A stretch of 64,000 nucleotides of DNA, from the NCBI RefSeq assembly GCF_025602895.1, contig NW_026516217.1, forward strand, positions 1 to 64,000, written 5' to 3'. The notes beneath the pieces are model-generated. The model made no database searches, had not been told where the DNA came from, and saw nothing but the letters and a program-made list of their open reading frames with translations. The first letter of the stretch is position 1. The number at the start of each line of letters is the position of its first letter. This stretch comes from Polychytrium aggregatum (taxonomy: Eukaryota > Chytridiomycota > Chytridiomycetes > Polychytriales). This document shows, piece after piece, positions 14,103-45,808 of the stretch. The translations under genes were made by a program, and so were the position numbers.

Positions 14103-14893
14103 TGTTAGAGTCCAAAGGGGACTCAACGGCAAAAGAAGAAGTGAGCTCGAAGTGAGCTCAGGGAAGGCAAGGGTAGAGTCCGAAGTGGACTCGGAGAGGG
14201 AGCGAGGGAAGCAAAGATCCGTTCAAGATAAGACTAGTCTCGAAATGAGACGTGAGGAACACTCAGAGAATAAAGTAGAAGGCACTTTATTTAGTCCTAT
14301 TTTGAACGCTAAGGTTCGACTACACATCGCGGGGGTCAGGCTATTTATAGACAAGTCCGGACTTGGCAGCGAAGGGCGGCCAAGGGAGGGAAAAGTGGGC
14401 GATCGAGCAGGGCGAAGGGGGCGATGCACGAACGAGGGCCGAGAAGGACCACCGAGACAGGCAGAGAACCAAAGCGAGAGAGGCGCAAGCAAAAGCGAAG
14501 CACCTGGCAGGAGAAACGTGCAAAGGCGAAGCAATGTGACTCAACGTCCAAGAAGCGGATTGGTCAAGTATAAGGTTGGGGCAAATGCATGCGAGATGAA
14601 CAAGAGATCGGGGCGGTCAGGCAGGTCATGAGTCACCGGTGGGGGGACACATGACCGGCAGCCGAATTGCAACCAATCGCAGCAAGGCGCGTGCACAAAC
14701 AAACCGGCGCGTGCGAAGAAGACAAAGGAAGCGGAGCAGCGCGGGAAAACGGAAGTGCGGAAGGAGCGGAAAAGACAGGCAAAAGGCGGAAAATCGGAGG
14801 GGAACTGCAAGGCTACACACAAACAAACAGAAAGGCAAAAGAATAGCCAAGTGTGCAGTCAAAGTGGAGAACAAGCAGGAGCTATCCCTAACA
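14103..14893 (-). repeat. Element C 5' LTR (right copy), with TATA box
   Basis: 791 bp. On the minus strand it has TATAAATAG at 14,349-14,341, a predicted RNA start near 14,310 and AATAAA near 14,292-14,287, so promoter and polyadenylation signal are both visible. Confidence 0.93.
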
Positions 14894-17800: not shown

Positions 17801-18274
17801 GCCGACAACATCAAGGTCCCCGAAGCCCAGTCAAAGAAGTTGTTGCCCAAGTACCGAGGACCGTTCAAGATAGCGGCCCGACCCAGTCCCCTCAACTACC
17901 TGTTGGACTTGCCACCTGGAAGCAAGCTCCATCCTGTCTTCCATGTGTCCAAGCTGCGTCGCCACACGACCCGCAGTCCAGCACAGTTCCCCGACGCCGA
18001 CGAAGGTGTCCCGGACGACGCACCACTGGAAGACGACCTCGGACAATACTATACTCAAGAATATGAAGTCGAAAGGATCGTGAGGCACAAGAAAGTGGCT
18101 GATGGGTCACTTCGGTTTTATGTCAAGTGGGTTGGTTACCCACACTCGGGCAACACATGGCAAACACTGGAGGACTTGTCCCATGCACCCGAGGAGCTGA
18201 GTAAATACGGTAAACACCTCGAGGAGCCCCAAATAAAGAGCACACGCAGGGCTCCTCGCAGGAAGCCTTCTTAA
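14894..18274 (+). CDS. pol: Ty3-A Pol, 3' segment (protease to chromodomain)
   Basis: About 1,126 codons, open from the protease (VDSGASCNF at the insertion edge) to TAA 18,272-18,274. Domains in order are aspartic protease, RT ([12 protein letters not shown] in [12 protein letters not shown] near 15,900), RNase H ([18 protein letters not shown]), integrase ([10 protein letters not shown]...[36 protein letters not shown]) and a chromodomain (VERIVRHKK...FYVKWVGY...TWQ). The frame also stays open leftwards into the LTR of element C as far as an ATG near 14,651, giving a chimeric reading frame with an Arg/Lys-rich leader. An identical segment is in Ty3-B. Confidence 0.92.
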
Positions 18275-21622: not shown

Positions 21623-24600
21623 CTACCCCCCTCTCAAGGCCCGAGCTCCGAGAGGGCCAGGCTTCGAGGGATGAGAGGAGTGGTAGGCTGCGACAGGCTC
21701 CGGACAATGTGCAAGATTGCTGGCGGGCTCCCAGGTGCAATCCATCACCGTGTAGCCACGCCAGTGCACAAGATACTGGAGCTTACCTCGGAACAGCCTG
21801 GAGTCCAGGATCTGTTCGACTTCCCATTCGTCGTGGCCGTCGACTTGGATGGGTGGAGGGGGCGGGATGATTCGACCTGGGATCTTGTCATCGGCGGCAG
21901 GCTCGAGGAGGGAGACGTGGAACACCGGATGGATGCGCATGGACGAGGGCAAGTCCAACTTGAAAGCGCGGGAACCGACTTGAGCGACGATCTTGAACGG
22001 CCCAAGCTTGGTGTGGTCGAGCTTGGCCGTGGGTCGCTGGGTCTTGATGTTCTTGGCGGAGAGCCAAACTCGGTCTCCAATCTTGAACGGAGGGGAAGGG
22101 GAGTGGCCGGGGTCGTAGAACTTGGCTTGGGAGTCCTGGGCAAGGGCGATGTTGAACTTGAGTTCATCGTGGAGGGAGTGAATGGCTCGGGCTTGATCGT
22201 CGGCGACGGAGGCATTCTTGGTGGTGCGGGGAAGGGCGACGGAAAAACGAGGGTGGTAGCCGGTGTAGGCAAAGAAGGGGGAGCAGCCGAGGGTTGCTTG
22301 AGAGGTGTTGTTGTAGGTGAACTCGGCGTGAGGGAGAAGCTGGGCCCAGTCGTCTTGCTGGAAGTTGATGAAGCAGCGGAGGTACTGCTCGAGGATGGCG
22401 TTGACCCGCTCGGTCTGGCCGTCGGTCTGCGGATGGAACGCAGTCGACATCTTGTGCTTGATCTTGAGGCGGGTCAGGACGGCTTGGAAGAACTTGGAGG
22501 CAAAGGTAGATCCTCGGTCTGAGACGATATCGTCTGGAAGACCGTGCTTGGTGAAGACGTGCTCGACAAACATCCGAGCAGTGTCCTCGGCGTTGGCCTC
22601 GTTGCTTGACGGGACGAAGTGGGCCATCTTGGTGAAGCGGTCGACAAACACACAGATGGCTGTGTGTCCAGAGGACTCGGGAAGCTGGGTGATGAAGTCG
22701 ACGGAGACAGAAGACCAAGGGCGATCGGGAACAGGGAGCGAGGCAAGGAGTCCGTAGGGCTTGTGACGGGAGTGCTTGTTCCGCTGGCAGGTGTCGCATC
22801 CGGAGACATACTCCTTGATGTAGCGACGCATGGTCGGCCAGTGGAAGGTCCGGGAGACGAGCTCGAAGGTCTTGGCGACGCCGAAGTGGCCGGCGGTCGG
22901 CGAGTCGTGGCACTCGACGAGAATCTTGCGCTTGAGCTCGGGAACATCGGGGACGCAGACGAGACCTTCAAAGAGCAGAAGGTCGTTGTCGACGGAGTAG
23001 CCGGGACAGGAGGCAGGGTTCTTGAGGACTTGGGACAGGATCGGACCAAAGGTAGAGTCCTTCTTGAGGTTTGACTTGATGAGGGCGGCGATATCCTCGG
23101 ACTCGGGGGCAACGGGAACAGCTCGGAGGGCGGAAACGAAGAGTTTTGGTGGCAGCAGGGTCTGGGTGTTCGGGGAGCTACGAGAGTCACCCCCCTCCTT
23201 AGGGAACTTGTCCTTGCGGGAGAGGGCGTCGGCGGCATTGTTGAGGGTTCCGGGTCGATACCTGATGACGAAGTTGTAATCGCCAAGGATCTCGGACCAA
23301 CGGACTTGGCGACGGCTGAGGTTGCGGGAGGTCTGGAAGTATTCGAGGTTCTTGTGGTCGGTGACGACCTCGGTGGCTTGGGAGGAGAACTCGAGGTAGT
23401 GTCTCCATTGCTTGAAGGCTGCGACGATGGCGAGAAGTTCCTTATCATAGATTTGATAATTCATTTCCGCATCGAGCAGCTTCCGGGAGTAGAAAGCCAC
23501 GGGGTGCAGGAGGCCTTCGTCGTCGCGCTGACTGAGAACAGCGCCAAGAGCATAGTCAGATGCGTCGGCTTCGATGACGCACTGACGCTCGGGGTCGAAG
23601 TGGCGGAGGACAGGACCGGTGCTCAGGCATTCCTTAAGCTTCAGGAATGACGTTTGAGCCGAGGGAGACCAGGAGAACTTGATGTCCTTCTTCAGGAGGT
23701 CCGTCAGCGGGGTGGCGATCTTGGAGTAGTCCTTGACGAACCGACGGTAGAAGTTCGCCAGGCCGAGGAAGACTTGGATGTCGTGGGCAGATCGGGGGAT
23801 CTCCCACTCCTGGATGGCCTTGACCTTGTCGGGATCCATGGAGATTCCATCGGGCGAGATGATGAACCCGAGGAAGGCGACGGAGGACTGGTCGAACTCA
23901 CACTTTTCAAGCTTGAGTGAGAGTCCGGCGTCTTGGAGCTTGGTCAGGACTTTCTTGACATGAGCCTCGTGCTCGGCAGGATCGGAGGAGTAGATGAGGA
24001 TGTCGTCCAGGTAGACGACCACGAACTGGTCAAGGTATTCTCGGAGGACATCGTTGACGAAGGCTTGGAACGAGGCAGGAGCGTTGGTCAAGCCGAACGG
24101 CATGACGTTGTACTCGAAATGGCCGTAGCGGCAGCGGAAGGCCGTCTTCCACTCTTCACCTTCAGCGATGCGCAAAAGGTTGTATGCGCCTCGCATGTCG
24201 AGCTTGGTGAAGATCTTGGCCTTGCCGAGGTTGTCGAACGTCTCGGCAATCAGAGGAAGGGGACAGCGGTTCGGCACGGTGATCTTGTTCAGGGCCCGGT
24301 AGTCGACGCAGAGACGGAGGGAGCCATCCTTCTTCTTGACGAACAGGACTGGGGCACCGGCAGGGGACTCGGAACGGCGGATGAAACCCTTGGAGAGGTT
24401 CTCTTGGATGTAGGTGTGGAGGGCGTCCATCTCCGGCTTGGAGAGGTTGTAGACGGGCCCAAACGACGGAGACGCACCTTCGACCAACGGGATCGTGTGG
24501 TCGTAAGGGCGGTGCTGGGGGAGCTTGTCGGCCTCGGACTTGGAAAACACCTTGGCAAAGGACGAGTACTTGGAGGGGACAGAGGGCTCGGCCTTGGGCT

Positions 24601-25510
24601 TGGCTCCAGCGTCGACGGAGCAGAGGGACAGGACTCGGGCAGCATCCAAGAGGAACACTTCCAGGCCTTCCTTCTGGACGGCGTGCTGGAAGGGGATGCT
24701 GCCGATCAGGCTGACGCTGGGCAGGGACTGGGTCTTGGTCTTGGTCTTTGGGACGGCAGGAGGCAAGGCAGGACTGGGCTTGGGCACGGCAGGAGGCAAG
24801 GCAGGGAGGATCTCGGGCTCGGCTGGGGACTCGGCTGGGGACTTGGCAGGAACAATCTTGGACTCGGGCAGGGACACGGCAGGCTCGGCGGGGACCTCAG
24901 CAGGGGACTCGGCAGGGCTGGACCTAGAGGACTGTGGCTCGGGAGAGAACGGGGAGGCCAAACTGTGGATAGAGGTGCAAGGCAAGAAAATAGAGTCATG
25001 GTGCCAGTCAAAGTAGGGTTTGTGTTTCTTGATCCAATCCATACCCAAGATGATCGGGTATGAAGCCAAGGGAATCAGCGCGAACGAGATTTGTTCATAG
25101 TGGCTGATGCCTGTGATCATAGAAACACAAACTCCAAGACTAGACTCCATCGAAGAACCATCGGCAAGAGTGATGACGAAAGAAGTTTCAAAGGTGGGGA
25201 GAGCGTGGGTTGCGGCGAATCCAGTGTCCATAAACGAAGTAACCGCGCCGGTATCGATCATGGCGGTTGCCCGTATGGACTCTGGACCGCACAGCAGAGT
25301 CACAGCGAGGGAGGGCTGACGTTGGATGTCAGGCTCGGGAGGCGAAGACGAAGAAGCAAGAGCGGTGGAAACGGTGGCAATGGTGACGGGGGCAAGATGG
25401 CAAAAGGCAGAAGAGTGATTTACCGTGGAGACATTTACAGGAGGAAGATTTATGACATGATTGACGCCTAGGAAAGCTCCTCCGACCTTTTCTAGGCAGA
25501 GAAGTTTTCC
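21623..25510 (-). CDS. pol: Element D Pol polyprotein
   Basis: Open in the -1 frame from the shift site near 25,504 to TAG at 21,623-21,625, about 1,290 codons. The frame has no ATG near its start, as expected for a frameshift product. Domains are protease (AMIDTGAVTSF, about 25,255), a Pro/Ala/Glu-rich spacer (about 24,750-24,950), RT (YLDD in VVVYLDDILIYS near 24,010), RNase H (IEADASDYALGAVL), integrase (HDSPTAGHFG...CDTCQRNK; VDFITQLP; VSDRGSTFAS; QTDGQTERVN) and chromodomain (VEQILDSR...LVHWRGY...TWEP). The protein looks intact, so this may be an active copy. Confidence 0.93.
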   Translation of the reverse strand, partial: GKLLCLEKVGGAFLGVNHVINLPPVNVSTVNHSSAFCHLAPVTIATVSTALASSSSPPEPDIQRQPSLAVTLLCGPESIRATAMIDTGAVTSFMDTGFAATHALPTFETSFVITLADGSSMESSLGVCVSMITGISHYEQISFALIPLASYPIILGMDWIKKHKPYFDWHHDSIFLPCTSIHSLASPFSPEPQSSRSSPAESPAEVPAEPAVSLPESKIVPAKSPAESPAEPEILPALPPAVPKPSPALPPAVPKTKTKTQSLPSVSLIGSIPFQHAVQKEGLEVFLLDAARVLSLCSVDAGAKPKAEPSVPSKYSSFAKVFSKSEADKLPQHRPYDHTIPLVEGASPSFGPVYNLSKPEMDALHTYIQENLSKGFIRRSESPAGAPVLFVKKKDGSLRLCVDYRALNKITVPNRCPLPLIAETFDNLGKAKIFTKLDMRGAYNLLRIAEGEEWKTAFRCRYGHFEYNVMPFGLTNAPASFQAFVNDVLREYLDQFVVVYLDDILIYSSDPAEHEAHVKKVLTKLQDAGLSLKLEKCEFDQSSVAFLGFIISPDGISMDPDKVKAIQEWEIPRSAHDIQVFLGLANFYRRFVKDYSKIATPLTDLLKKDIKFSWSPSAQTSFLKLKECLSTGPVLRHFDPERQCVIEADASDYALGAVLSQRDDEGLLHPVAFYSRKLLDAEMNYQIYDKELLAIVAAFKQWRHYLEFSSQATEVVTDHKNLEYFQTSRNLSRRQVRWSEILGDYNFVIRYRPGTLNNAADALSRKDKFPKEGGDSRSSPNTQTLLPPKLFVSALRAVPVAPESEDIAALIKSNLKKDSTFGPILSQVLKNPASCPGYSVDNDLLLFEGLVCVPDVPELKRKILVECHDSPTAGHFGVAKTFELVSRTFHWPTMRRYIKEYVSGCDTCQRNKHSRHKPYGLLASLPVPDRPWSSVSVDFITQLPESSGHTAICVFVDRFTKMAHFVPSSNEANAEDTARMFVEHVFTKHGLPDDIVSDRGSTFASKFFQAVLTRLKIKHKMSTAFHPQTDGQTERVNAILEQYLRCFINFQQDDWAQLLPHAEFTYNNTSQATLGCSPFFAYTGYHPRFSVALPRTTKNASVADDQARAIHSLHDELKFNIALAQDSQAKFYDPGHSPSPPFKIGDRVWLSAKNIKTQRPTAKLDHTKLGPFKIVAQVGSRAFKLDLPSSMRIHPVFHVSLLEPAADDKIPGRIIPPPPPIQVDGHDEWEVEQILDSRLFRGKLQYLVHWRGYTVMDCTWEPASNLAHCPEPVAAYHSSHPSKPGPLGARALRGG
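25466..25510 (-). promoter_or_regulatory. Candidate -1 frameshift signal, element D gag/pol
   Basis: Minus strand GGAAAAC (25,510-25,504) in phase with gag codons GAA AAC, then a 6-nt spacer. A hairpin follows in which GCCTAG-A-AAAG (25,497-25,487) pairs with CTTT-C-CTAGGC (25,476-25,466), with one mismatch. The heptamer is not strictly canonical (GGA instead of GGG), but layout and frame shift equal those of the other two families. Confidence 0.6.
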
Positions 25511-26730
25511 TGGTCGTCAAGTTTATTCACATCAACGACAGCCAAAGAAGCATCGATGGCAGCCAAGCGGGAGGATGCCTTATTGGGGCAGCGAGGGGCA
25601 ATGTGCCCTTCCTGCTTGCAATAAAAGCAACGATTAGCAGCACGGAGGGCGGCCTTGTCCTCGGCGGTCAGCCTGCGAGCGGAAGCCTGGCTGAGGTCCA
25701 TGGGCTGGGGAACGTTGAAGGCTTGAGCGGGGCGAGGAGGAGGAGCAGGAGCGAAGGGACGAGGAGCCGGACGGAAAGGGAGAGGAGCCGGACGAGCAGG
25801 AGCAGGAGCAGGAGCGGAGCGGTGGTTGGGACGGCGGGAGCGTTGGTCCTCCTGGCGGTTGTCGATGGCGATCGCCGCTTGCATGAGATCTTCGAGGTTG
25901 TCGAAGGAGCGGCGGGAGAGTTCATCTTGAACCGAGGGCTTGAGTCCACTCTCGAAGTGGAACATGAGAGGGTCTTGGGACCAAGTGACGAGGTGGACGG
26001 CTTGGCGGCGGTACTCGGCGGCATAGGCGGCGGCGGAGGTGACTTGGTAAAGCCTGACCATCTCGCGAGCAGCGGCGATGGTGGGCTGGACCTGGCCAAA
26101 GGCAGCACGGAGCCACTCGGAGAAACCGGCAAAGTCACGGATGGCAGGGGGAGAGCACTCGGGGTCTCTCTCCAACTGATCGATGTACGGCTGCATGTAG
26201 TCTGCAGCAGTACCATCGAGATAGGATAAGGCGTAAAACACCTTATCCCTTTCAGTCTGGAAGAGGGGAGGGTTGGACACGAAGGCCAGTCTGCAATGCG
26301 AGAGGAAGGCATTGCAGCGGCTCGGGTCCTTACCAGAGAAGCGGTCGGGAGGACCTATCTGCCTGGTGGCAGAGTTGCGACCAGCAGAGTGATCCTCGGG
26401 GTCTTGGGCAGGATCATCGACGTCGTCAGGTACGCCGAAGTAGGGGCGACCTGCGCGACGGATCGGAGCGGGAGCAGGAACTGGAGGAGGTAGCTGGGCC
26501 TGGTAGCTGCGGAGGGCCTCCTGGACACTGGCGGCGACAACTTGGCGGACATCCTCTTCACGGCGAGCCAGGACCTGGTCCATACGATCGGTGATGCGGT
26601 TGAGCGCATCATCCTGATCGTGGAGGAACTTGGAAAAGTCCTGGAGAGAACGGGCGTTCTCGGCGGACTGGATAATGACCGCACGGATGGCCTGGAGCTC
26701 GGGCTCGGAAAGGCCAGAAGGGGAAGCCAT
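25492..26730 (-). CDS. gag: Element D Gag protein
   Basis: 412 residues from ATG 26,730 (MASPSGLSEPEL); upstream codons lie in the LTR and lack a better ATG. A heptad-rich N-terminus is followed by a capsid core (FYALSYLDGTAADYMQPY, WLRAAFGQVQP, AAYAAEYRRQAV), a Pro/Ala/Arg-rich stretch and one clean CCHC knuckle (CFYCKQEGHIAPRC, about 25,607-25,570). It ends at TAG 25,494-25,492 inside the frameshift hairpin. Confidence 0.92.
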   Translation of the reverse strand: MASPSGLSEPELQAIRAVIIQSAENARSLQDFSKFLHDQDDALNRITDRMDQVLARREEDVRQVVAASVQEALRSYQAQLPPPVPAPAPIRRAGRPYFGVPDDVDDPAQDPEDHSAGRNSATRQIGPPDRFSGKDPSRCNAFLSHCRLAFVSNPPLFQTERDKVFYALSYLDGTAADYMQPYIDQLERDPECSPPAIRDFAGFSEWLRAAFGQVQPTIAAAREMVRLYQVTSAAAYAAEYRRQAVHLVTWSQDPLMFHFESGLKPSVQDELSRRSFDNLEDLMQAAIAIDNRQEDQRSRRPNHRSAPAPAPARPAPLPFRPAPRPFAPAPPPRPAQAFNVPQPMDLSQASARRLTAEDKAALRAANRCFYCKQEGHIAPRCPNKASSRLAAIDASLAVVDVNKLDDQENFSA

Positions 26731-26802: not shown

Positions 26803-27383
26803 TGTCAAGACTGGACAACGGGGCAAGCAGGGAAGCGCGCAAGAGTCCTAATGCAAGACTCGAACGTAGGGAGAGGAGCGGGGACTGGACTGGGACACAG
26901 AGTGTCAAGTGTGAAGCCAAAGTTTTATTCTAGATCCAAGGCTTAGGATACTAAAAATACAAAGTGGCAAGACGAAGGCAAAAGACAGAGGCTGGTCGGA
27001 GGGCTATTTATGCGAGCGCCAAGGATCGACGTTGCAGAGCGAGGGGGCAGGAGCGAAGCAGCGGCGGGGAGGGCGAAGCAGCGAGCGAAGCAGGTGGCGG
27101 CCGTGACTCGGGATCCGTGAGTCAGCGGGCGTCAGTGGCGGCGGCATGGCGGCGCCAAGGCGTCAGGCGGCGTCGAGGCGGCGTCGTGGGCGTAACCCAC
27201 GACCAACAGCAAGGAAGCGGGAACGGAACACAGACAGCGCGCGTGCTGGCGGGAAGACAACAAGGCAGCACAGCGCGGGAAACAAACAAACAGAAGGAAG
27301 GGAAAGCGCTAAGGCAGGCAAACAGAAAGGAAAGGGCAAAGGCAAAGGAAGGAAGAGGGCAAAGGCAGAGGGTGTTCATGACA
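26803..27383 (-). repeat. Element D 5' LTR (right copy)
   Basis: 581 bp, same as the left copy. The minus strand shows ATAAATAG, a predicted start near 26,973 and GAATAAAAC downstream. Confidence 0.95.
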
Positions 27384-30216
27384 CTCGTCGCCTCCGTCAA
27401 GACCGACGTACCAACTGTCGCTGACGGAGATGGACGAACTCAAGCGCCAGTTGGATGACCTCCTCGCCCATGGGTTCATCCGCCCGAGCCAGTCACCGTA
27501 TGGTGCACCAGTGCTCTTTGTCAAGAAGAAAGAAGGTGATCTCAGGATGTGCGTCGACTATCGCGCACTAAACAAACAGACCATCAAGAACACCTACCCG
27601 TTGCCCAGGATCGACGAGTTGATGGATCGTCTGAGTGGAGCAAAGGTCTTTAGCAAGATAGACCTCCGCTCAGGCTACCATCAGATCCGCATCCACGAGG
27701 ATGATGTCCACAAGACCGCCTTCAGGACTCGCTACGGACTGTACGAGTTCCTAGTGCTGCCGTTCGGATTGACGAACGCACCTGCCACGTTCATGCAGCT
27801 GATGAACGATGTGTTCCGCCAAGAGCTCGACAACTCTGTCATCGTGTACCTGGATGATATCCTTGTGTACAGCAAGGATGAAGCGACCCATGAAGGTCAT
27901 GTCGCCCGCGTGCTGGCCAAGCTACGCGAGCACAAGTTGTATGCCAAACTGTCCAAGTGTGAGTTCTTCAAGAATCAAGTCCCGTTCCTGGGACACGTTG
28001 TCTCAGGAAGAGGAATCGAAGTCGACCCCGCCAAGGTCAAGTCTGTGGTCGAGTGGCCGCCGCTCGCATGCGTCTCTGACGTGCAGTCGTTTCTCGGTCT
28101 CGTCAACTACTACCGCCGATTCATCCCCGATCTGGCGCGCACTGCCGGTCCACTCACAGACCTACTCCGCAAAGAGTGCCCCTTCGTGTGGGACCACCCA
28201 CAACGCCAAGCGTTCGAGACCCTCAAGCACGCCTTGACGAACGCTCCTGTCCTCGCTGTGTTCGACCCGAACACGGATGTCTCCGTGCACACCGACGCCT
28301 CCGACTTTGCGGTGGGAGCTGTTTTGATGCAGGAGGGAAGGCCCGTTGCCTTCGAGTCGCGCAAACTGTCCCAACACGAGATCAACTATCCCGTGCACGA
28401 GAAGGAGCAGCTTGCGATCATCTACGCGCTGCAGAAGTTCCGAGTGTACCTCCACGGTACCGCCAAGCCCTTCAAGATTGTGACGGACCACCAGTCACTG
28501 CGTTACCTCGACACCAAGAAGAACCTGAGCCGACGCCAAGCGCGATGGATGGAGTTCCTCGCCGAGTACAACTACGAGGTTGTATACCAGAAAGGCAAAC
28601 TCAATGTGGTGCCTGACGCACTGTCCCGACGCCCCGACTACCAATTGGCGTCACTGTACGAGTCGACTGTCAGTGTCGACAACACGATGCTGGATGTTGT
28701 CCGAGACAACATCGCCAACGACAAACAGTTCGGAGAACTGTTCCGAAAGGTGTCTAAGCTCCCCAAGGACGACGAATCATCCGAGTACACAGTGCGTGAT
28801 GGCCTGCTCCTCCTGAAGAAGGACAGCCGTGTCTGTGTGCCGGACATTCCGTCGTTGAAGACCAAGTTGCTCCAAGAGGTCCACGACTCGCCCCTCGCTG
28901 GACACTTTGGAGTCGAGAAGACATACGACCGACTGGCCAAAGTCGCATACTGGCCTGGAATGAAGCGCACCGTCGAGAAGTACATCGAGTCCTGCCATAC
29001 CTGCAAGATGGTCAAGTCACGCACGACCCGAGAGCAAGGATTGCTGCAACCCCTGCCTGTTCCCGACCGCCCCTGGACCAGCATGTCCATGGATCTCATC
29101 ACGCATCTACCGACGACCAAGTTGGACCACGATGCAATCGCTGTCTTTGTCGACAGGTTCAGCAAGATGGCACACTTTGTGCCGTGCCAGACGACATGCT
29201 CCGCGCCTGACCTTGCACTGCTGTTCTTCAAGCATGTGTTCAAGCACCACGGCCTCCCAAAGTCCATCGTCAGTGATCGAGACCCCCGATTCACCTCCTT
29301 GTTTTGGACAAGTCTGTTCGACCATCTCGGCACCAAGCTGAACATGTCAACCTCGCACCACCAACAAACGGATGGACAGTCCGAGCGGACGATCCGCACC
29401 CTCGAGCAATACCTGAGGACATACGCCTCGACCAGCCAAGACGACTGGGACATACAGCTGAGTCATGCAGAGTTTGCATACAACACCGCCAAGTCGAGCA
29501 CAACTGGCTTGAGCCCCTTTGAGGCGCTCTACGGATTCCAGCCTGATGTTCCCACCTCCTTGACACTGACCGAGTCCACGGCTGGATTGCCTCCCAAACC
29601 AAGTGCCTTTGTCAAAGATCATCAAGTCCGACACAAGATGATCGCCGACGCGCTCACGGATGCGCAACAAGTGATGGCGAAGTACTACGACCGCCGACAC
29701 CAGGATGTCTCCTTTGAAGTTGGAGACCTTGTCTACCTGGACGCCGACAACATCAAGGTCCCCGAAGCCCAGTCAAAGAAGTTGTTGCCCAAGTACCGAG
29801 GACCGTTCAAGATAGCGGCCCGACCCAGTCCCCTCAACTACCTGTTGGACTTGCCACCTGGAAGCAAGCTCCATCCTGTCTTCCATGTGTCCAAGCTGCG
29901 TCGCCACACGACCCGCAGTCCAGCACAGTTCCCCGACGCCGACGAAGGTGTCCCGGACGACGCACCACTGGAAGACGACCTCGGACAATACTATACTCAA
30001 GAATATGAAGTCGAAAGGATCGTGAGGCACAAGAAAGTGGCTGATGGGTCACTTCGGTTTTATGTCAAGTGGGTTGGTTACCCACACTCGGGCAACACAT
30101 GGCAAACACTGGAGGACTTGTCCCATGCACCCGAGGAGCTGAGTAAATACGGTAAACACCTCGAGGAGCCCCAAATAAAGAGCACACGCAGGGCTCCTCG
30201 CAGGAAGCCTTCTTAA
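27384..30216 (+). CDS. pol: Ty3-B Pol, 3' segment (RT to chromodomain)
   Basis: Continues pol after element D; open to TAA 30,214-30,216, with a first ATG at 27,430. It holds RT (YLDD near 27,845), RNase H, integrase with its HHCC and three acidic residues, and the chromodomain. The sequence matches 15,448-18,274. Joined across D, Ty3-B pol would be a single open frame, so D is the only visible lesion. Confidence 0.93.
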
Positions 30217-35747: not shown

Positions 35748-38700
35748 TCAATTTGAGCTGGCTGTAGTCACCGCGACCGAGGTACTCCGCAAGTTGGGCT
35801 GTGAGGGGATGTGTTAGTATCAATTCATTGATATAGTCCATCAACATAAAAACTCACCCGAATGATGACAGGTTGGGAATTGACCATTATAAGGGATTCT
35901 GATATAATTTTCCGGTGATCCCAGTTGTGAAGTGAACTTGGTACTTTGAACAGCTGACCTCCATGTCGAATCCACTGGAGCGGAATACTTGTTGCTCCCC
36001 GGTTTCGGAGGATTGTTGCCTGGCCTTCCAGCATCCAATCGCTTGATGTTACAGGAGTTGGGGCAACTGCAAAGCTCTCACTACTCTGGTTCGAGGGTAA
36101 AAACTCGTCCAAGTGTCGAGTCCATATAATCTCTCGACCATCCCAATCCCGGGAAATGATCGTGTTGCTGTCTGTGGTGATTTCCAAAGAAGTGATGGGC
36201 CATATATGTCCTCCGAGGGATTGAACCAGACGACCTGTTGTTGCGTCCCACACGTTGACCGTTCTATCACTGGATCCTGAAGCGATCCAACGGCCATCTG
36301 GGGATGCGGCAACGGCTTCGACGGAGCCCGTATGTCCCACGCGTGTGTACGCTGTCGGACTCTTCAGGGGCTCCCAAACTTTGATCGTTTCATCATTGGA
36401 TGCAGACACAATCAGCTCACTATTCGCAGAGACGGCGACTTGATTGATAACGTCTGTATGCCCCTCAATACTTTGCTCAACTTGACCTGTCAATACATTC
36501 CAGACCTTGATTGTCTTATCATATGAGCCAGAAACGATCGACATGCTGTCGGATGTAAATGTCAAGGTATGCACATCGCTTGTATGTCCCTGGAGTGTTT
36601 GTTTCAATTGACCCGTGGTTGAGTCCCACACCTTGATGGTGCGATCACTGGAGCCGGATGCAATTGACATTCCATCAGGCGAGATCGCTACGGACATCAC
36701 TTGGTCGGTGTGTCCCACGAGTGTGTGCTTCAGCTGCCCTGTGGCTGTATCCCAGATCTTGATGGTTCTGTCAGCCGAGCTCGTGATGATGAACTTGGCA
36801 TCGAGCGAGGTTGCCACAGACCAAACATATGCTGCGTGACCTTCAATTGTATGTATCAGGCGACCCGTATCCATGCTCCACATCTTGATGGTCATGTCAC
36901 CAGAGCCCGAGACAATGAATTGACCATCATGTGAAATCGCCACGGAGCTTACTAACTTTGTATGCACGTCGAACGTGTGCTTCACTTGGCCTGTGGCAGC
37001 ATCCCATATCTTGATTGTCATGTCGTATGACCCAGAGACGATCCACTTGCCATCGGGTGATATCGCCACGGAACTCACACTGTTTGTGTGGCCGTCAAGA
37101 GTGTTCTTCAGCTGACCAGTGATGGTATCCCATACTTTGATGGTCGTGTCGTTTGATCCCGATACAATCCACTTGCCATCGGGCGAGATGACAAGTGAGC
37201 TCACTCCACCTTCATGTCCAGTAATTGTCATCACACACGGATCCCAGGTGGGTGCTGGACCGGCTGTGACCAGGAACGGGATCTTGTCCTCGAGCTGGGT
37301 GGCATATGTCTTGTAGATCGCCGTCTCCTTCGGTGTGAATGCATACCCCGAGTTGTACACCTGTGGCGCACTCGCAATGATCGGATCGGCAAACTCGCGG
37401 ATGAATCGATACGTGTCCTTGACCAGTTCCTTCGTGGTGTCGTCGACGATGGTGCTGGGTGCCATGTTGGTCACTCCTCGCAGCACAGCCAGTTGCTCGA
37501 TGATCGGCTTGACCACATGTGTGAGCGACACACACTCGAGCCAGAAGAATACATGGGTCTTGACGAACCGAGTGAGCACCGCTGCCACATCGACCATCTC
37601 GGCCGACTGCCACACCGGACTCGACTCGGCCACTCCTTCCACACACCACACAAAGTGTGTGATCCAGTGGGCGACGCTGTATCGCAGCGACGGTGTGATC
37701 TTGGCTGCGACCCTGTCCTCGAGGTCTGGGATCTTGTCGTGGAACTCGAAGATCTCGCAGATGTTGATCACTGGCTCGTGCGAGAGGATCACTCCGAGAC
37801 ATCCCTTGGCAAACACCGTGTGGAACGAAGTCGACACATGCCACGGATGGCCAGTCGATGCATCGCCGAGGAGATAGTCCGCCACCGACTTGTGGTTGAA
37901 CTTGACCTCGGTATTGGTGGACGGGCTGCCTCGGGGACCCAGTCCATTGGCGCCAGGATCGAGGACCAGACTGAGGCCCTTGAGACACTCGCGAACGACC
38001 CCGATCTCGAGTCCAAACACATGGGCGATGATCTGCGGGGTCAGGATCGACTGGGCTGTGGCAATTGCCGACACCACCGCGACCAGCTCGGCCGGGTGGC
38101 TCGACTGCGAGTGGATCTTGGCAAATGTCTTGTGGTACAGCTGCCCGACATCGGCGGCGCTATCGTTGATGTCCTTGATCGTGGCGAGTGTCACTGGGCC
38201 GTCTGTGGATGCTGCGTCGACGGTGTTGAGGATCAGGTTGATCCACACGAATGTCTTGGACTGGTCCAGCAGGATGGCGACTGCCTCGGTGCGGTCCGAG
38301 TCACTGAGAGTGTCATGCACTCGGAGTCGGTGGTGGATGTACACCTCGAGGTCAAGGATGTTCTCCTCGCTCGAGGGCTCGATCGTCTTGGTCGGGACTC
38401 CATCGAATGCTGCCTTGATGTCCTCCTCGGGTCGGGATGTCAGCAGCAACTTGAGCCACGGACGGGTCTTGTTCAGCTCGACGAAGCGCCAGGCAAGCAG
38501 ACTGAGCAGCTGGTCGCGCGGAGAGCACTCGTCGAGTGCATCCACCAGGACCATCACCGATCCCTTGGGTCTGTAGTCGCCGATGGCTCCGAGTGGATCG
38601 GCAATCACGGCCTTGAACAGATCAGGAATGCTCATCTTGTCGAGACTGTCCTTGGAGTGGCCAGCATCGAGCAGCTTGCGGCCGATTGGAGAGTACCACT

Positions 38701-40900
38701 TGCACAGACCGTATGCGATGGTGTTCAGCACCACTCGTGGATCGCTCTTGCGAGTGTCGTTGTACTTGAGGAACAGCGCCGACACCAGCTGGTTGGATGC
38801 AGTGAGGATGTTGGCGATCTGGGCGGCAGCGACAGACTTGCCCACTCCAGCAACAGCCGTGACCCACAGGACAGTGTCGGTGGTATCCTGGTTGACCCAG
38901 TCGGTGGTTTGGTCGAACAGCCACTGGCGAGTGCCCTCGACATACAGTCTCTCAAGTGATCGGCGATCCTGCTCCGAGTTCAAAGGCATGAGGAGAGCCA
39001 TCAAGGCCTCGATCTCTGCTGCATTGAGCACAATCGCACCACTTTGATGATACACTTCGCCATTCTTTCTGGCTCTTTCTGTCTTGGTGATCAACTCCCG
39101 GATGCTTGGAACATGGCTGGTGGCAGATCCGCTCCCGGTTATTGAAGTACTCAAATCGCGGTGCCTCTTGTTCCTCACCCGACTTACCTCTTGAGAGCAT
39201 TTCCATCGACAGCATCGAGTGCTTGGAGCTTCAAGAGCTCATTAAATGTCCTACGAATCGTCATCGGACGTCCGTCAAACAAGGGACTGCTCTTATGGAG
39301 AGGAGGATAGTCGGGAAAGTCTTTTGGATCCGGAAAATATTTCCTTGAAAATAGCCCATCTCCCACGCGGACTGTTCACCAAATGAATATTGGCTGCAAT
39401 ATTACAAACTTCCTCGTTTCTGGGTCTTTGATGAGCTTCAAGGCGTGTTGAACCTATTATGTAGTTCGTCTGCGTCAGAATCAGTTCTCGTTGACCTTGC
39501 CCACATGATCGGCTCACCTCAAGGAATTGATTGTCGGCGTAGAGGTGCGCCTTCAGGGTGCGTTTCAGCCCCTCTTCGGACAACAATAGCACAATCACAG
39601 GAGAACGATGCAGCCCGTTGATGAAGCCATCCTCCCAATTTTGCCCATTACAAAGGCACAAATGGTCGAGATAGGGATGGAGGGAACTCTGGCTTCTCTT
39701 GTTGGATATGAGCGCACTAAGCAACAGATTTGCCTTGTCGCTTTCGCTTGCAACCCGGTAGCTATGAACGCTGACGTGAGTCTAGGGCACTATCCAGGCT
39801 GAAATATGAAGAGCACCCCATGACCGTACCTGATGAAAACATCGTGCCTCTGACATTCAAGGCGACATTCCCAGTCGGGAATGATCTCGGCAGGTGTATA
39901 GTGCTCAGGGCCAAAGTATTTCGGCTCGGGATCTTGCTCACGGTTAAACTTTGCATCGGCCACGACCTCCTCGCTCGTGCCATCCTCTGTGATGCTCGGT
40001 TTAGCTGAAGTGTGCTGGAGCTTTGGTGTCGGCTCTTCATTTGGATTCCATGCCGGCGACGCTGTCATGGAAGGAGATGAGCCTCGTTTGCGACCCCGGT
40101 TGGTCAGGCGAATCTCAGGCAGAGCGGCGTTGCCGCGGGAGACACACTGTTTCGAGTGAGCGATCTCGTGGGCTCGAAGGGCTCCTTGGGCGACCCTGAT
40201 CTTTCTTCGAGCGCCAATTTTGAGTCCAATCTGGGCCATGTCTCCTCGAGACATTGCCAAAACCTGAGTCAAAGGCGGATGGTCAGCAACGGGCCAGTCC
40301 TTTTGCACACCGAGCAGCAATACCCACAGCATCGATGGTGTCGAAGTCGCTCTCGACCAACACGGCTCTGGACTTTTCCAATCCCCATTCGGCCAGAAAC
40401 TCGTCGAATGTGTCCCTGGATTCGATATTGGCAAGGCGGCCAGACTCCGTGGTGGGAAGACAAATGTGCAATGTCGATGGGTTGGTTTGTGCCAGCTTGA
40501 CTTTCTTCATAGCACCAACGGTCAGCCCGATGGCCCTCATCTCGTCCTCTGTCATCAAGAGCACCTGGAACAGCAAGTATCAGCATTTGCCCAAAGTTCG
40601 ACCGAGGCCTGTGCTCGTCTCCCTCCCATCAAGACCCACCAATCTGGCGTTCGTGAATCCGGCAGCTATAAGCACCGGACACTCCGCCATCAAATCGTGA
40701 TCTTCGAGGAATCGCTCAAAGTCTTCAGTTGAACCGCTTGAACGGCCCTCCATGGGTAAGCAAATATTCATCGAGAGACTGAAGCTGATGGCCCCATGTG
40801 GCGGGTATCGAAAGCCCAAGAGATGGCATCGATTGCCAAGCCATAGGAAGGCGAACAGCACGACGATGGTGCCCACGGCAGCGGCAATAGCATGTAGCAT
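35748..40900 (-). CDS. Predicted membrane-anchored SAM-SAM-TIR-NACHT-WD40 NLR-type receptor, with one in-frame TGA
   Basis: Seven exons by splice signals and phase: 40,900-40,640; 40,564-40,328; 40,263-39,830; 39,761-39,518; 39,453-39,188; 39,116-35,858; 35,798-35,748. Together about 1,583 codons. Domains are a hydrophobic N-terminus (residues 4-22, AAAVGTIVVLFAFLWLG), SAM1 (about 59-115), SAM2 (about 138-195), TIR (about 306-480; DVFIS, NGQNWEDGF, RSPVIVLLLSE, and the Glu in NQFLE as candidate catalytic residue), NACHT (Walker A AGVGKS near 570-575, Walker B VMVLVDALDEC near 668-677), a helical region and nine WD40 repeats (about 1,105-1,480). The family logic is WD40 sensing, NACHT oligomerisation and TIR NAD+ cleavage or signalling. 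An in-frame TGA at 39,376-39,378 (codon 418) would truncate it. The start and the last exon (two possible frames) are the least certain parts. Confidence 0.75.
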
Positions 40901-41460
40901 CTGTCGACACACATCATCGAGATCCACATGGGCTGGGTGAGCTGGGATGTCCAGTATGGGGCAGATCCAACGTCCTCGCGCACCCAAAAGCTCGGCGATG
41001 AGGCAAATACAAATGCATAGTTTCCAAACCTGGGCACTGTTCCGAGCCGGTGCTGAGTCGAGACGAGGATGAACAGACGCAGAATATCAGAAATGGTGGA
41101 GGCTCTCGGTGCGATGGGAAAGAGATTCCTCGGTGGGAGATGCGATCGCAAGCCAGAGCCAGGAGGCCAGTCGGGAGACAGGGGGATCACCACCACCCAA
41201 GGACGCGGAATCCTGACCCGGCCAGAGTCCCGGCGATCAGCGGTGTCGATCCAGCAGGGAAACACTCCCGTCTTGATGAACAATGAGCTTCGGCCGGGCC
41301 AAGCGACCTGCCAAACTCAGAACTCCCTCCATTGGGTGGGTGTGATATTGTTTTATTGTCGCTGTAATCCACATTTGCAGCTCAGGCAATCATCCTCAAC
41401 GTCGGGTCTTTGCTCGTTGATCGCCATTCCCTTCCCATCATCGAAGAGAGATTTTGGTGC
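40901..41460. other. Intergenic, upstream of the receptor gene
   Basis: About 560 bases between the receptor start and the 3' end of the next minus-strand gene; no convincing coding region. The receptor frame stays open to 40,987 but without an ATG. Confidence 0.5.
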
Positions 41461-42499
41461 TCACGGCCGCCAGGAACTTGGAATGAACCGACCCCACATT
41501 CGCCGGGCAACGTAGCGGAAGTAGGCCCCTCGCCCAAAGAGCGTGCCCACAGTGACCAAGACAAGCGAGTAGAACGGCAGCGTCGTCATAAGATAGCAGA
41601 TCCGGAAGAGCCACGGGCCCTGGGCAAATGTGCCTGATGGAGCATACACGGTATCAGCCGGGTTTCTTCATCGTCTCGGGAGATATCGACAATCGCTGTC
41701 GTGTGGCCAGACCGATGGTGATCATCGACAAACGCTGATCTCCTGCCCGACGTCCGTGCACACTCTTACCTTCAATGCCGATGACATTGTTCAGAAACGG
41801 CCGCACAATCGACACGGCCGTGGATCCGGTGATGCCAAAGATGACAAAGATGATTGCCCAGTCCTTCCACCAGCCCATCGAAAACTGTGGATGCTCGGAT
41901 GCCGACGGCTTCGTTCGGACGGTTTCGGGACCAGCAGAGCCCGCATGTGGCATTTGTGGGGCCCGATCGAGTCCCGGCTTTTCCGGATGACCGGCTGCAT
42001 TCGCCAGAGTCTGCTTGGTTGCTGCATCGACCTCAACTTGGCAAAGGCCGCCCTTGGAGGTCGCTGCCGAATCATCGGGTTGTCTGGGAGGTGCGCTGCT
42101 CATCGCCCGAGACTGGCCTGGACCTGCTCGATGCGGAGCAGTGAGCGGCAAGTCCAGCGAAGATCCCCAAGGCAGCGTAGTTGCAGGCAACTTGGCAATG
42201 ACCATGATTTGGCGGAAAGGGGTGCTGGGTGTGGTTGCAAACGGGGCCTGTGTGGGCCGGAATGGCACGTTTGTGTGGCTGGTGGCAGAGGAAACCGACA
42301 GATGGCCCCGACAAAAGGCAGGAGAGTGCGGTAACCCTGCGGCCGGGGTGACTGGCCCTCGTTGGGTCGATGCGGCCCGCCAAAGTCCTCTCGATCCGCT
42401 TGGGCTGATCGAGATGGCCAAAGGGTCATTGTGGGCACCGGAGTGATTGGGCTTTGAGCTGCCCCTGATCGACACAAGCGATCGTCGGAGCACGGACAT
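41461..42499 (-). CDS. Small membrane protein resembling DUF6787, probably mitochondrial
   Basis: Two exons, 42,499-41,770 and 41,633-41,461, with a GTAAGA...CAG intron of 136 nt; 300 residues. The N-terminal 170 residues are Ser/Arg/Pro-rich with few acidic residues ([13 protein letters not shown]...), which suits a mitochondrial presequence plus spacer. The conserved part spans the intron: [27 protein letters not shown] (first membrane segment), then [17 protein letters not shown] and [13 protein letters not shown] (second), ending in [12 protein letters not shown]. The GITGS and GPW...GRxxYF pattern recalls the DUF6787 family from memory; no biochemical role is known to me. Its start faces fumarase across a 625-bp shared upstream region. 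Confidence 0.7.
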
Positions 42500-43124
42500 G
42501 GCGGACAGGAAGGGACGACGATGTCGCGAAATGACTCGGGACGATGCCAAGACGATGTCAAGACGACGTCAGGACGACGTCAAGATGAGCGAGATGGCGA
42601 TCAGAGGTGCAAGGCCAGAGGATCACGATCGGCCGCCGAGCCGCAAACCAAATCCCGAATTTGCCATCCAACCGACGCCGCCAAACGAACCCACAACCCA
42701 CCACCGCTGGTCACCGCCAGCCAGCAGCGATCCGGCCTCTGTCCTGCCGTCATGCACCCGCCTTCTTCCATGCCGTCTCTCTCCTTCTCCCTCTTTCGTC
42801 GTCGGGTTGTGAAAGCTCGAGCAGAATACATAGCGCGCAGCACTCACCGTTTGCTGGGGCGAACCCGACATGTGGCGCAGCCGGCTGATTCGGCGGCGCG
42901 TCACTCTGACGCCGAGGCGTCGCACCGAGGAGCGAGGACACAGACACAGCGTCGCCGGCAGCACAGCCGCCCCACGAGGGCAAGCGAGAACCCCGCGAGA
43001 GAGCCGGCCGGGGTCTCTGCCCACAACCCACATCGCCATCGACACTCTCCCCACCACTTGCCATCATCCAGCTGCTCTTCCAGCAATCCATCACATCCCG
43101 ATCCAGCACAGCAAGACAACCGAC
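42500..43124. promoter_or_regulatory. Divergent upstream region of the DUF6787-like gene and fumarase
   Basis: 625 bp between two divergent starts. Near 42,541-42,592 an array of ACGATGTCAAG/ACGACGTCAGG units repeats the ACGTC core, a bZIP-type site. ORFs running through here (for example from 42,521) are not supported. A mitochondrial leader exon for fumarase could be hidden here but was not found. Confidence 0.4.
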
Positions 43125-45808
43125 ATGGCCGATGTTCGTGTCTCGCGATCGTATCAGCTATGCGTGGTCTCGGAGCACCAGGCTCGTATCTGAGAGCCCA
43201 CAGTCTGACCTTCATACCTTCATACCCTCATTCCATCAACACGCGGCTCTCCAGAGCTACAGAATCGAGCACGATACCTTTGGCGAAATCAAGGTTCCTG
43301 CCAACCGCTACTGGGGCGCCCAGACGCAGAGGTATGGTCTTTAGTGCGTTCAAAGTCTCGCCATATCATCCGCGATCGCCTGGCATTGTCGGGTTGCATG
43401 TTACTGACATCCTATATGTGACCGATCGTCTTCCCTTGTTCGCAGATCTCTCCAGAACTTTGAGATTGGCGGGCACCGGGAGCGCATGCCCGAGCCTGTT
43501 ATCGAAGCCATGGCCATTCTCAAGAAGGCCGCCGCCATCGTCAACATCGATTATGGGCTCGACCACAAGCTGGGCGAAGCCATCTCCAAGGCGGCCGACG
43601 AGGTGCGACTCCCTTGTCCGCACCGGTGCCGCCTTCTCAGCGAGCATCGAGCCAGTATTGAAATCGCATCGAGGAAGTAGCTTCTCACAACCCTGCGATC
43701 CGCTCTGCGTGCCCCAGATCCTGGCCGGCAAGCTGCACGACGAGTTCCCCTTGGTCATTTGGCAGACCGGCTCTGGTACCCAGACCAACATGAACGTCAA
43801 CGAAGTCATCGCCAACCGTGCCAACGAGATTCTCGGCGTCCAGACACGCGGCACTCAGAAGCCCGTTCATCCCAACGACACCGTCAACATGAGTCAGAGC
43901 TCGAACGACACGTATGTGCCGCCGCTGGGCCGTGACATGGCAACCCGAACCCGCCTCTGCAGGGCTGGGTGCATTGGATGGGACTCGACGCCTGCTGACC
44001 CTCACCCGGCGGATCTTGATCTGCGGGATTTTCTTGGTCGTCCAGGTTCCCCACGGCCATGCACATCTCGGCCGTCCTGGAAATCAACCGACGCCTGCTT
44101 CCCGGCCTTCAGGGGCTCCAGCGGGCTCTCCAGGAGTGCTCCGACAAGTGGATGCACATCATCAAGATCGGCAGAACGCACACGTAAGCTCTCGCTTCCG
44201 ACACTGCCATCTGCAGAAGATCACCCCCTCGAATAACAAGCCATACGTATCTGTATCCCGTCCCTCATGCGGACCTGGCCCTTCAGCCAAGATGCCACTC
44301 CCCTGACCTTGGGCCAAGAGTTCTCAGGCTATGCGACTCAGGTTGCTTACAGCATCGAGCGCGTCAAGGCCGCCATTCCCCGTCTCAGCCAGCTTGCCCA
44401 AGGCGGAACAGCCGTTGGCACTGTAAGTTGCATCTCCCCGTGATCGTTCGGACGTAGGAGTTGACAAGCTCAGTCATTTATCGACGGGCTCTTTGTAGAT
44501 CTTGACTCGCCACTGATACGCCGTTATCGCGATAGGGTCTCAACACGAAGAAGGGCTTTGACGTCAAAGTCGCTGCCGAAATCACAAAAATCACCGGCAC
44601 CCATTTCACCGCCGCTCCTAACAAGGTAGGGTCGTCCAGACTGCTGAGCATAACTGGGTTTGTGTCTTCGAATAACCAAATAACACCGCGCAACGGGCAC
44701 CATTCTGCTCCGCCTCCGCACTCAAGTTCGAGGCTCTTGCTGCCCATGATGCCATCGTCGAGGCGAGTGGCGCTTTGAATGCCGTCGCTGCCTCGCTGAT
44801 GAAGATTGCCAACGACATCCGATTCCTGGGTATGTTTCGATTGCACCTCGCGCCGCGCATGAACTGAGTGCGGACCCGGTGTATGGCGCGGTGCTATCGA
44901 TCAGCCATCGCAGCTGCGTCAAGTGTGCATTTCTTTGCTTGGCCTCATCACCACTCACGACATCCACAGGATCCGGTCCCCGAAGCGGCCTCGGCGAGCT
45001 TTCTCTTCCTGAAAACGAACCCGGCTCGTCGATCATGCCGGGCAAAGTCAACCCGACCCAGTGCGAGGCCATGACCATGGTCTGCAGCCAAGTCTTTGGA
45101 AACCACGTCGCCATCACCGTTGCCGGCTCCAACGGCCACTTTGAGGTTCGTACAGAGCCCAGAGCCCGTCCACACCACGCCACTCTCTGTCGCTACCAAT
45201 GTTCATGCGCCTTGCACACGGCACTCCACTCCGGGGCAATACCACCCGATGCTAAGTCGACCCTTGCTTTCTTCGTCGTGATGGTATTCACGGCACGTCT
45301 TGCTGCGTACGCTCATTGCTGCCCCTTGCTCAGCTCAACGTCTTCAAGCCCGTCCTCATCGCCAACCTGCTGCAGTCCATCCGTCTTCTCGGGGATGCTG
45401 CAGTGTCATTCACCAAGAACTGCGTCGTGGGTATCCAGCCCAACGAGGACAAGATCAAGCAGCTCTTGCAGCAGAGTTTGATGTTGGTCACGGCCCTGAA
45501 CCCACACATCGGATACGAAAGTATGTACTTTTGCACTGCGGTCCATTCGCCGTGACAGCCCTGTGGAGTGGCATCTCTCTTGCTCGAGCCCTTGTATCAA
45601 CGACTCGAGTGCTGGATGCGGCCCTATGTGCACCATTTCCATCAGCATTGACCAGTTCTGCCACCCGCCAGATTCCGCCAAGGTCGCCAAGAAGGCTCAC
45701 AAGGAGGGCACGACCCTGAAGGAGGCTGCCCTTGCCCTGGGTCTCTTGACCTCTGAGCAATTCGACGCATGGGTCCGTCCCGAGGACATGCTGGGCCCCA
45801 AATTGTAG
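43125..45808 (+). CDS. FUM1: Fumarate hydratase, class II
   Basis: Catalyses fumarate to L-malate in the TCA cycle as a homotetramer. Eleven exons: 43,125-43,133; 43,255-43,331; 43,446-43,602; 43,718-43,911; 44,046-44,183; 44,287-44,422; 44,536-44,625; 44,727-44,829; 44,970-45,145; 45,334-45,520; 45,672-45,808. The sum is 1,404 nt, giving 467 residues, the usual class II length. Signatures include YWGAQTQR near the N-terminus, [12 protein letters not shown], the active-site [25 protein letters not shown] and the family motif [11 protein letters not shown]. The first exon is tiny (Met-Ala-Asp) with a weak donor, so the start is the least sure part; as drawn the product lacks a mitochondrial presequence and would be cytosolic. 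All other introns are short GT-AG introns. Confidence 0.93.

Follow-up and report, generated by a model that had tools for sequence, protein, structure and literature searches.

A candidate immune receptor gene lies on the minus strand at positions 35825-40900 of a 64,000-nucleotide stretch from Polychytrium aggregatum (the window, meaning the whole stretch analysed). A splice model combined with Pfam searches gives its product the domain order SAM-SAM-TIR-NACHT-WD40, which bears out an earlier note on this DNA. Six exons (Table 1) are joined in consistent phase by GT-AG introns, the five accepted introns measuring 64-75 nt, and the translation runs from a hydrophobic start through SAM1, SAM2, a linker and TIR to NACHT and a WD40 propeller. 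The length given earlier, about 1,583 codons, is corrected to 1,565 codons if a 36-nt skip in the TIR region is kept and to 1,577 if it is not. The acceptor before the TIR core is better set at 39762/39761, which yields DVFISYR and matches the annotated homologue P0001 from Chytriomyces hyalinus (DIFISYR in P0004 from Chytriomyces sp. MP71).

The profile searches that the earlier note proposed recovered SAM, NACHT and WD40 and, at a lower score, TIR. Specifically, the 1,137-codon frame at 35825-39238 (minus strand) matches NPHP3_N, treated here as NACHT class, with an E-value of 7.9e-27, and contains eight WD40 stretches; the top solved-structure chain for the WD40 part is the WD-40 repeat protein 2ymu, and no tandem repeats were found at the DNA level in this part with TRF. 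With a Walker A (AGVGKS) and a Walker B (VLVDALDEC) motif in the NACHT part and WD40 repeats at the C-terminus, the fungal NOD-like receptor (NLR) chassis described earlier is present. In the spliced two-SAM model, SAM_1 (E 2.8e-6, 28.0 bits, cut-off 23) and SAM_2 (E 1.1e-5, 26.0 bits, cut-off 20.5) each match two stretches, single SAM domains tested alone fall slightly below the Pfam cut-off, and all 12 rows of a SAM alignment (A2) match SAM_1 at E≤0.1. TIR_2 scores 20.1-22.9 bits in the window copy, below the cut-off of 28, which is exceeded in the homologues P0003 (37.7) and P0004 (28.6); in alignment A3, TIR_2 is matched at E≤0.01 by 10 of the 11 TIR members, the best of them with an E-value of 1.7e-10. 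Within residues 1-495 of the model no further Pfam family was found at E≤10.

SAM1 begins 56 residues after the first ATG, and the SAM1 and SAM2 introns interrupt the SAM fold at matching positions, judging from alignment A2 and the exon borders. An intron divides each of SAM1, SAM2 and the start of TIR, with exons shared among them, so the SAM-SAM-TIR order holds wherever the gene borders are guessed to lie. Predicted order and phase would also place the N-terminal effector and NACHT-WD40 in one polypeptide, but the window copy has a stop codon in TIR (see below). The join between these halves depends on a single 71-nt intron, so that two adjacent genes, SAM-TIR and NACHT-WD40, might have been wrongly united; we regard this as highly improbable. 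The join keeps the reading phase, paralogues have it in the same position, and the NACHT exon has no in-frame ATG ahead of the paralogue-conserved segment SHVPSIRELI. Furthermore, the end of TIR and NACHT-WD40 share one open frame in loci L036, L037 and L047 (an in-phase intron is still possible there), and P0001, P0003 and P0004 are annotated as single proteins, these annotations being themselves predictions.

The first exon of the window copy reaches a hydropathy of 2.38 over 19 residues, a value attained by 6 of the 1,154 open 60-codon blocks of the window. Three two-SAM paralogues (L043, L046 and L047) have a first exon of the form ML(Q/L)xIIVISALVGLLSLWWLH(Q/R)KKQ, with a hydropathy of 1.83-2.40. 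Read by hand, this exon joins the SAM1 exon in phase via a GTCAGT donor and an AAAG acceptor; a strict splice-join filter found no join for it in these three loci. The hydrophobic N-terminus of the earlier note is probably right, and its role as a membrane anchor, which the family supports at the sequence level, is plausible and unproven.

Table 1. Positions of the receptor gene, its parts and nearby retroelements in the window
Feature	Position	Strand	Basis or remark
Exon 1: hydrophobic N-terminus, first half of SAM1	40640..40900	-	Uncertain start codon; residues 1, 44 and 50 are in-frame ATGs
Predicted membrane anchor	40835..40891	-	Residues 4-22; hydropathy
SAM1, split by intron 40565-40639	40499..40732	-	Pfam SAM_1, stretch 57-109
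Exon 2: end of SAM1, start of SAM2	40328..40564	-	Splice model
SAM2, split by intron 40264-40327	40198..40417	-	Pfam SAM_2, stretch 137-188
Exon 3: end of SAM2, linker, first TIR strand (HDVFI)	39830..40263	-	Splice model
Exon 4: TIR core	39518..39761	-	Alignment; last codon (39518-39520) is the Glu aligned with SARM1 E642
Exon 5: C-terminal part of TIR, interrupted by TGA	39188..39453	-	Single exon, as in paralogues
In-frame TGA in TIR	39376..39378	-	Sense codon in all 35 paralogous loci with the exon found
Intron linking TIR exon to NACHT-WD40 exon	39117..39187	-	GTAAGT...CAG, 71 nt; phase-consistent, same place in paralogues
Exon 6: linker, NACHT, NACHT-WD40 spacer, WD40 propeller	35825..39116	-	Pfam and solved-structure match
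NACHT domain with Walker A and Walker B	38432..38935	-	Pfam NPHP3_N, residues 102-269
Low silent-divergence stretch, putative gene-conversion tract	37343..38782	-	20 to 500 codons after Walker A, most paralogues compared
WD40 repeats	36104..37213	-	Eight WD40 stretches
Ty3/gypsy-type element	9287-12679	-	Reverse transcriptase, integrase, chromodomain
Ty3/gypsy-type element	14600-18274	+	Reverse transcriptase, integrase, chromodomain
Ty3/gypsy-type element	21623-25516	-	Reverse transcriptase, integrase, chromodomain
Ty3/gypsy-type element	27382-30216	+	Reverse transcriptase, integrase, chromodomain

The paralogue family and the likeness of its TIR domain to SARM1

The genome searched for paralogues comprises 64.7 Mb in 418 contigs. 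Matches to the TIR exon numbered 121 at E≤0.001 and 94 at E≤4e-12, the 27 weaker ones possibly belonging to other TIR families. A hand-composed query running from the second half of SAM through the linker to the first TIR strand gave 76 matches at about 69 places; six of the 76 barely reach the SAM half or miss it, and the matches do not include the window copy or its nearest relatives (C51, C142, C312 and C368), so the figure only approximates the number of SAM carriers. Near-identical loci occur on contig pairs, which suggests that both haplotypes are probably counted in these totals, and distinct genes may therefore be nearer half of the counts. The gene is thus no single oddity: it is one of about a hundred related TIR-exon places. 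The number of SAM domains varies among the 12 loci in which the region upstream of TIR was read: some, for example L034, L041 and L044, have one, a few residues after an ATG, and L043, L046, L047 and the window copy have two. In a tree of TIR exon 4 (82 columns) the window copy groups with L030 and L039 with support of 87/99, in a topology that is poorly resolved (both support marks reached by 6 of 24 inner branches). Simple-repeat expansions (THSL.., SHSH..) lie 3′ of TIR exon 4 in L038 and in L036/L037, and no C-terminal TIR exon is visible in the stretch read at L038. The best reading of the family is a diversifying TIR-NLR repertoire in a chytrid-like fungus.

The family TIR profile was compared with solved structures, and among the matches listed SARM1 ranks first (E 3e-7); the nearest solved relatives by sequence are NAD hydrolases. 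The Glu of the family aligns with SARM1 E642 and is kept in 39 of the 41 exons read, a count in which the search pattern itself requires Glu and the two exceptions, L042 (Gln) and L067 (Gly), were read separately. By analogy with these hydrolases we infer that the family TIR cleaves NAD+. SARM1 and Caenorhabditis elegans TIR-1, which are ARM-SAM-SAM-TIR NAD hydrolases, share with the window family a tandem SAM followed by TIR, and differ from it in what lies on either side: NACHT-WD40 follows TIR in the window family, and no counterpart of the SARM1 ARM region, which keeps SARM1 inactive, was found by Pfam at E≤10 in residues 1-495 of the model. Moreover, in a sequence search of solved structures the SAM domains match those of Caskin and Eph rather than those of SARM1. 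The earlier proposal of a SARM1-like effector therefore stands for the order and the Glu and not for the SAM sequences or the ARM region; "SARM1 arrangement" denotes order and likely chemistry, and descent is not implied. It is doubtful, though with a chance that we do not consider negligible, that the TIR domain is a scaffold without NADase activity. Many animal TIRs are scaffolds according to a 2026 preprint (PMC13142454), and against such a role here stand the retained Glu and the enzymatic nature of the closest solved relatives. A search for bacterial or archaeal TIR relatives with two peptide patterns matched 47 stretches, none of which was confirmed.

Silent divergence along the paralogues

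The two ends of the receptor and its centre differ markedly in how far the paralogues have diverged. Among the nine of 15 loci that could be split into parts, median identity over 36 pairs is 92% in the NACHT part and 59% in the WD part, the pairs not being independent because L034/L035 and L044/L045 are near-identical; these nine loci carry between 5 and 12 WD repeats. The window copy differs from eight paralogues at 21-44% of residues in TIR exon 4; in NACHT it differs at 6-8% in six of eight loci, at 12% in L053 and at 24% in L043. Silent sites show the contrast more sharply. Between the window copy and 14 loci, the proportion of synonymous differences (pS) is 0.66-0.82 over a 50-codon stretch starting 95 codons ahead of Walker A and 0.48-0.80 in WD40; in the NACHT core it is 0.05-0.23 for nine loci and 0.07-0.31 for L053. 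Two departing lineages run against this pattern, with core values of 0.19-0.44 for L043/L046 and 0.35-0.67 for L039/L040. Fourfold-site divergence pooled over seven loci, which were chosen after the departing lineages had been seen and leave out L039/L040 and L043/L046, drops from 0.62 to 0.02-0.16 between 20 and 470 codons after Walker A and is 0.45-0.50 from 530 on; pairs with L039 and L043, tabulated apart, give 0.08-0.42 in the core bins. For the window copy, fourfold divergence is 0.01-0.15 in 16 of 17 bins, each thirty codons long, between 20 and 500.

These sequence comparisons would be explained most simply if the NACHT core underwent gene conversion or unequal exchange while the effector and sensor ends went on diverging. 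The GC content of third codon positions, higher in the core (0.72-0.79) than in WD40 (0.53-0.70) across 14 loci, would fit GC-biased conversion. The NACHT exons of L029-L048 and L053, with low silent divergence in the core and near saturation in the linker and WD40, form a candidate gene-conversion hub. Two other causes of the low core divergence were considered and not favoured, a conserved antisense gene and biased codon use; synonymous constraint of a further kind may still contribute. A 586-codon antisense open frame faces the NACHT core (37199-38959, plus strand). A conserved antisense gene as the cause is not supported: of 15 loci, four (L029, L045, L047 and L048) keep this frame open throughout the core, and in 11 it is broken. 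An antisense run as long as the observed one came up in few codon-preserving shuffles of the window copy (5 of 300); for the remaining 14 loci the number ranged from 23 to 300 of 300. Biased codon use alone was judged too weak to hold fourfold divergence at 0.01-0.15.

The stop codon in the TIR exon

In the window copy, TIR exon 5 contains an in-frame TGA, just past the part that aligns with the model's fourth TIR strand and downstream of the Glu codon. The exon 5 pattern found this exon in 36 of 41 loci, missing it in L038, L039, L040, L042 and L067, and the stop occurs at this place in the window copy only (1 of 36). Many of the 35 paralogous loci are near-identical copies, 40 loci giving 23 distinct TIR exon-4 proteins. 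The earlier note had removed the stop with a 36-nt intron (39344-39379). This intron was rejected because the paralogues read straight through the stretch, which is coding in all 35; it is also shorter than the other introns of the gene and than the homologous intron between the TIR exons, which measures 61-193 nt in the paralogues in which it was measured. In L060 the stretch ahead of TIR exon 5 has no AG where the pattern set the acceptor, possibly a splice-site change. With the premature TGA in TIR, the working, self-contained switch envisaged earlier is not supported for the copy as assembled.

We slightly favour a reading in which the window copy has recently become a pseudogene or is a null allele, leaving only its paralogues functional. 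The confinement of the stop to this copy fits such a history, as does the absence of a second copy of 39000-41400 at high identity in the genome, where the DNA match ranked next reaches 69% over a length of 408 bases. Between the window copy and L030, TIR exon 4 shows a pS of 0.79 and a proportion of nonsynonymous differences (pN) of 0.14, which suggests that the TIR lineage of the window copy was long under purifying selection before any loss; together with a NACHT-WD40 frame that is otherwise open, this is the pattern of recent loss. Against this reading, a substitution error in the assembly would give the same picture, no second copy of the locus having been found that would tell it from a null allele. 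For Dictyostelium tirD, the 2026 preprint (PMC13142454) reports that other assemblies lack a stop codon present in the reference and that verification showed the locus to be a single gene. A different outcome of the stop would be a short SAM-SAM-TIR product that ends in TIR past the Glu, lacks NACHT-WD40 and acts as a stand-alone or partner TIR. The position of the stop after the Glu codon and the fourth-strand stretch would suit this product, which we nonetheless think improbable: it would miss the C-terminal part of TIR, and a long-standing short form would not need the downstream NACHT-WD40 frame, which is uninterrupted.

Around the locus, the receptor gene adjoins a retroelement-rich block (Table 1). 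An opposite-strand neighbour, the frame at 42458-44236 (plus strand), matches Lyase_1 and is read as fumarase-like. ARAGORN, run with the bacterial code, found no tRNAs in the window.

Relatives in other organisms and a proposed mechanism

Public protein searches returned four relatives, all named hypothetical: two from Chytriomyces hyalinus, one from Chytriomyces sp. MP71 and one from Rhizophlyctis rosea. Such searches miss relatives, because a query with P0004 returned only itself although P0001 is related. P0004 (Chytriomyces sp. MP71 BC830DRAFT_1141173) has the full SAM-SAM-TIR-NACHT-WD40 order, its architecture being unannotated; its first SAM was found by profile comparison (probability 98.5), and its second SAM and its TIR lie above the Pfam cut-off. 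The occurrence of the architecture in another chytrid, which the earlier note had suggested looking for, is thereby supported. P0001 (C. hyalinus HDU78_009105) has the same order with one SAM, and a second SAM-TIR unit C-terminal to WD40 that is either real or the product of two genes merged by annotation. Neither Chytriomyces protein has an evident N-terminal anchor like the one predicted for the window copy. The R. rosea protein (HDV00_001374) shares TIR-NACHT and differs in having ZZ zinc fingers and neither a SAM nor a WD40 match.

Like the window family, plant TIR-NB-ARC-LRR receptors place a TIR effector on an oligomerising STAND ATPase; their sensor is LRR rather than WD40, their ATPase is NB-ARC rather than NACHT, they have no SAM, and SARM1 ranks above the plant TIR structures. 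NACHT followed by a varying number of WD40 repeats is shared with fungal HNWD NLRs such as HET-E (HET-NACHT-WD40), whose HET domain has been called a remote relative of TIR (PMC9815663, PMC4986451). The window family differs in its effector, a TIR with SAMs, and in a NACHT core that varies very little among most of the paralogues compared. NLRs from Chytridiomycota are reported to include TIR and those of Pezizomycotina TIR-like (SEFIR-resembling) effectors, and SAM_Ste50p is listed among new N-terminal annotations of fungal NLRs (PMC9815663); a SAM ahead of TIR, such an architecture and a family of this size are not given in the available part of that paper. No NLRs were found in chytrids in 2014 (PMC4986451). 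Fungal TIRs reported before the 2026 TIR atlas were very few, and the atlas itself has almost none, all from Rhizoclosmatium globosum, with no fungal TIR in the InterPro TIR clan (PMC13142454). In the open-licence literature, supplements aside and as far as the available parts extend (including PMC9815663, PMC13142454, PMC4986451, PMC9153377, PMC11291939, PMC12881547 and PMC7075850), we found no description of SAM-TIR-NACHT-WD40 in fungi, and a large fungal SAM/TIR-NACHT-WD40 receptor family is apparently undescribed.

Taken together, we consider it likely that the locus is a member, with one in-frame stop in the assembly, of a large chytrid-like NLR family of the form SAM(1-2)-TIR-NACHT-WD40 that would act as a TIR NADase. 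The domain order, the homology, the conserved Glu, the purifying selection on the TIR exon, the family size and the conserved NACHT against a variable WD40 are directly supported by the comparisons above. For NADase activity, oligomerisation, trigger, membrane and cell death we draw on the families named. By analogy with these, the WD40 propeller would hold the protein inactive and bind a variable trigger; the NACHT domain would then exchange nucleotide and oligomerise, and the SAM domains would help to pack the TIR domains together. Clustered TIRs would cleave NAD+ by means of the conserved Glu, leading to cell death or growth arrest. In two-SAM members the hydrophobic N-terminal segment may fix the complex to a membrane, the remainder lying in the cytosol.

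More tentatively, these observations may describe a zoosporic fungus whose TIR-NLR genes number many tens, their gene-converted NACHT core serving as a recombination hub that repeatedly joins diverging SAM/TIR effectors to diverging WD40 sensors. This could be an independently evolved SARM1-style NADase system of immunity or allorecognition, with a membrane-tethered two-SAM branch, in a kingdom that is nearly TIR-free in surveys. A chytrid-like genome with 94-121 TIR-exon matches, many of them preceded by SAM, would change the picture of how TIR-NLR immunity is distributed. It would make testable whether early-branching fungi kill infected or incompatible cells through loss of NAD+, and the silent-site pattern provides a concrete model for how such a repertoire may diversify.

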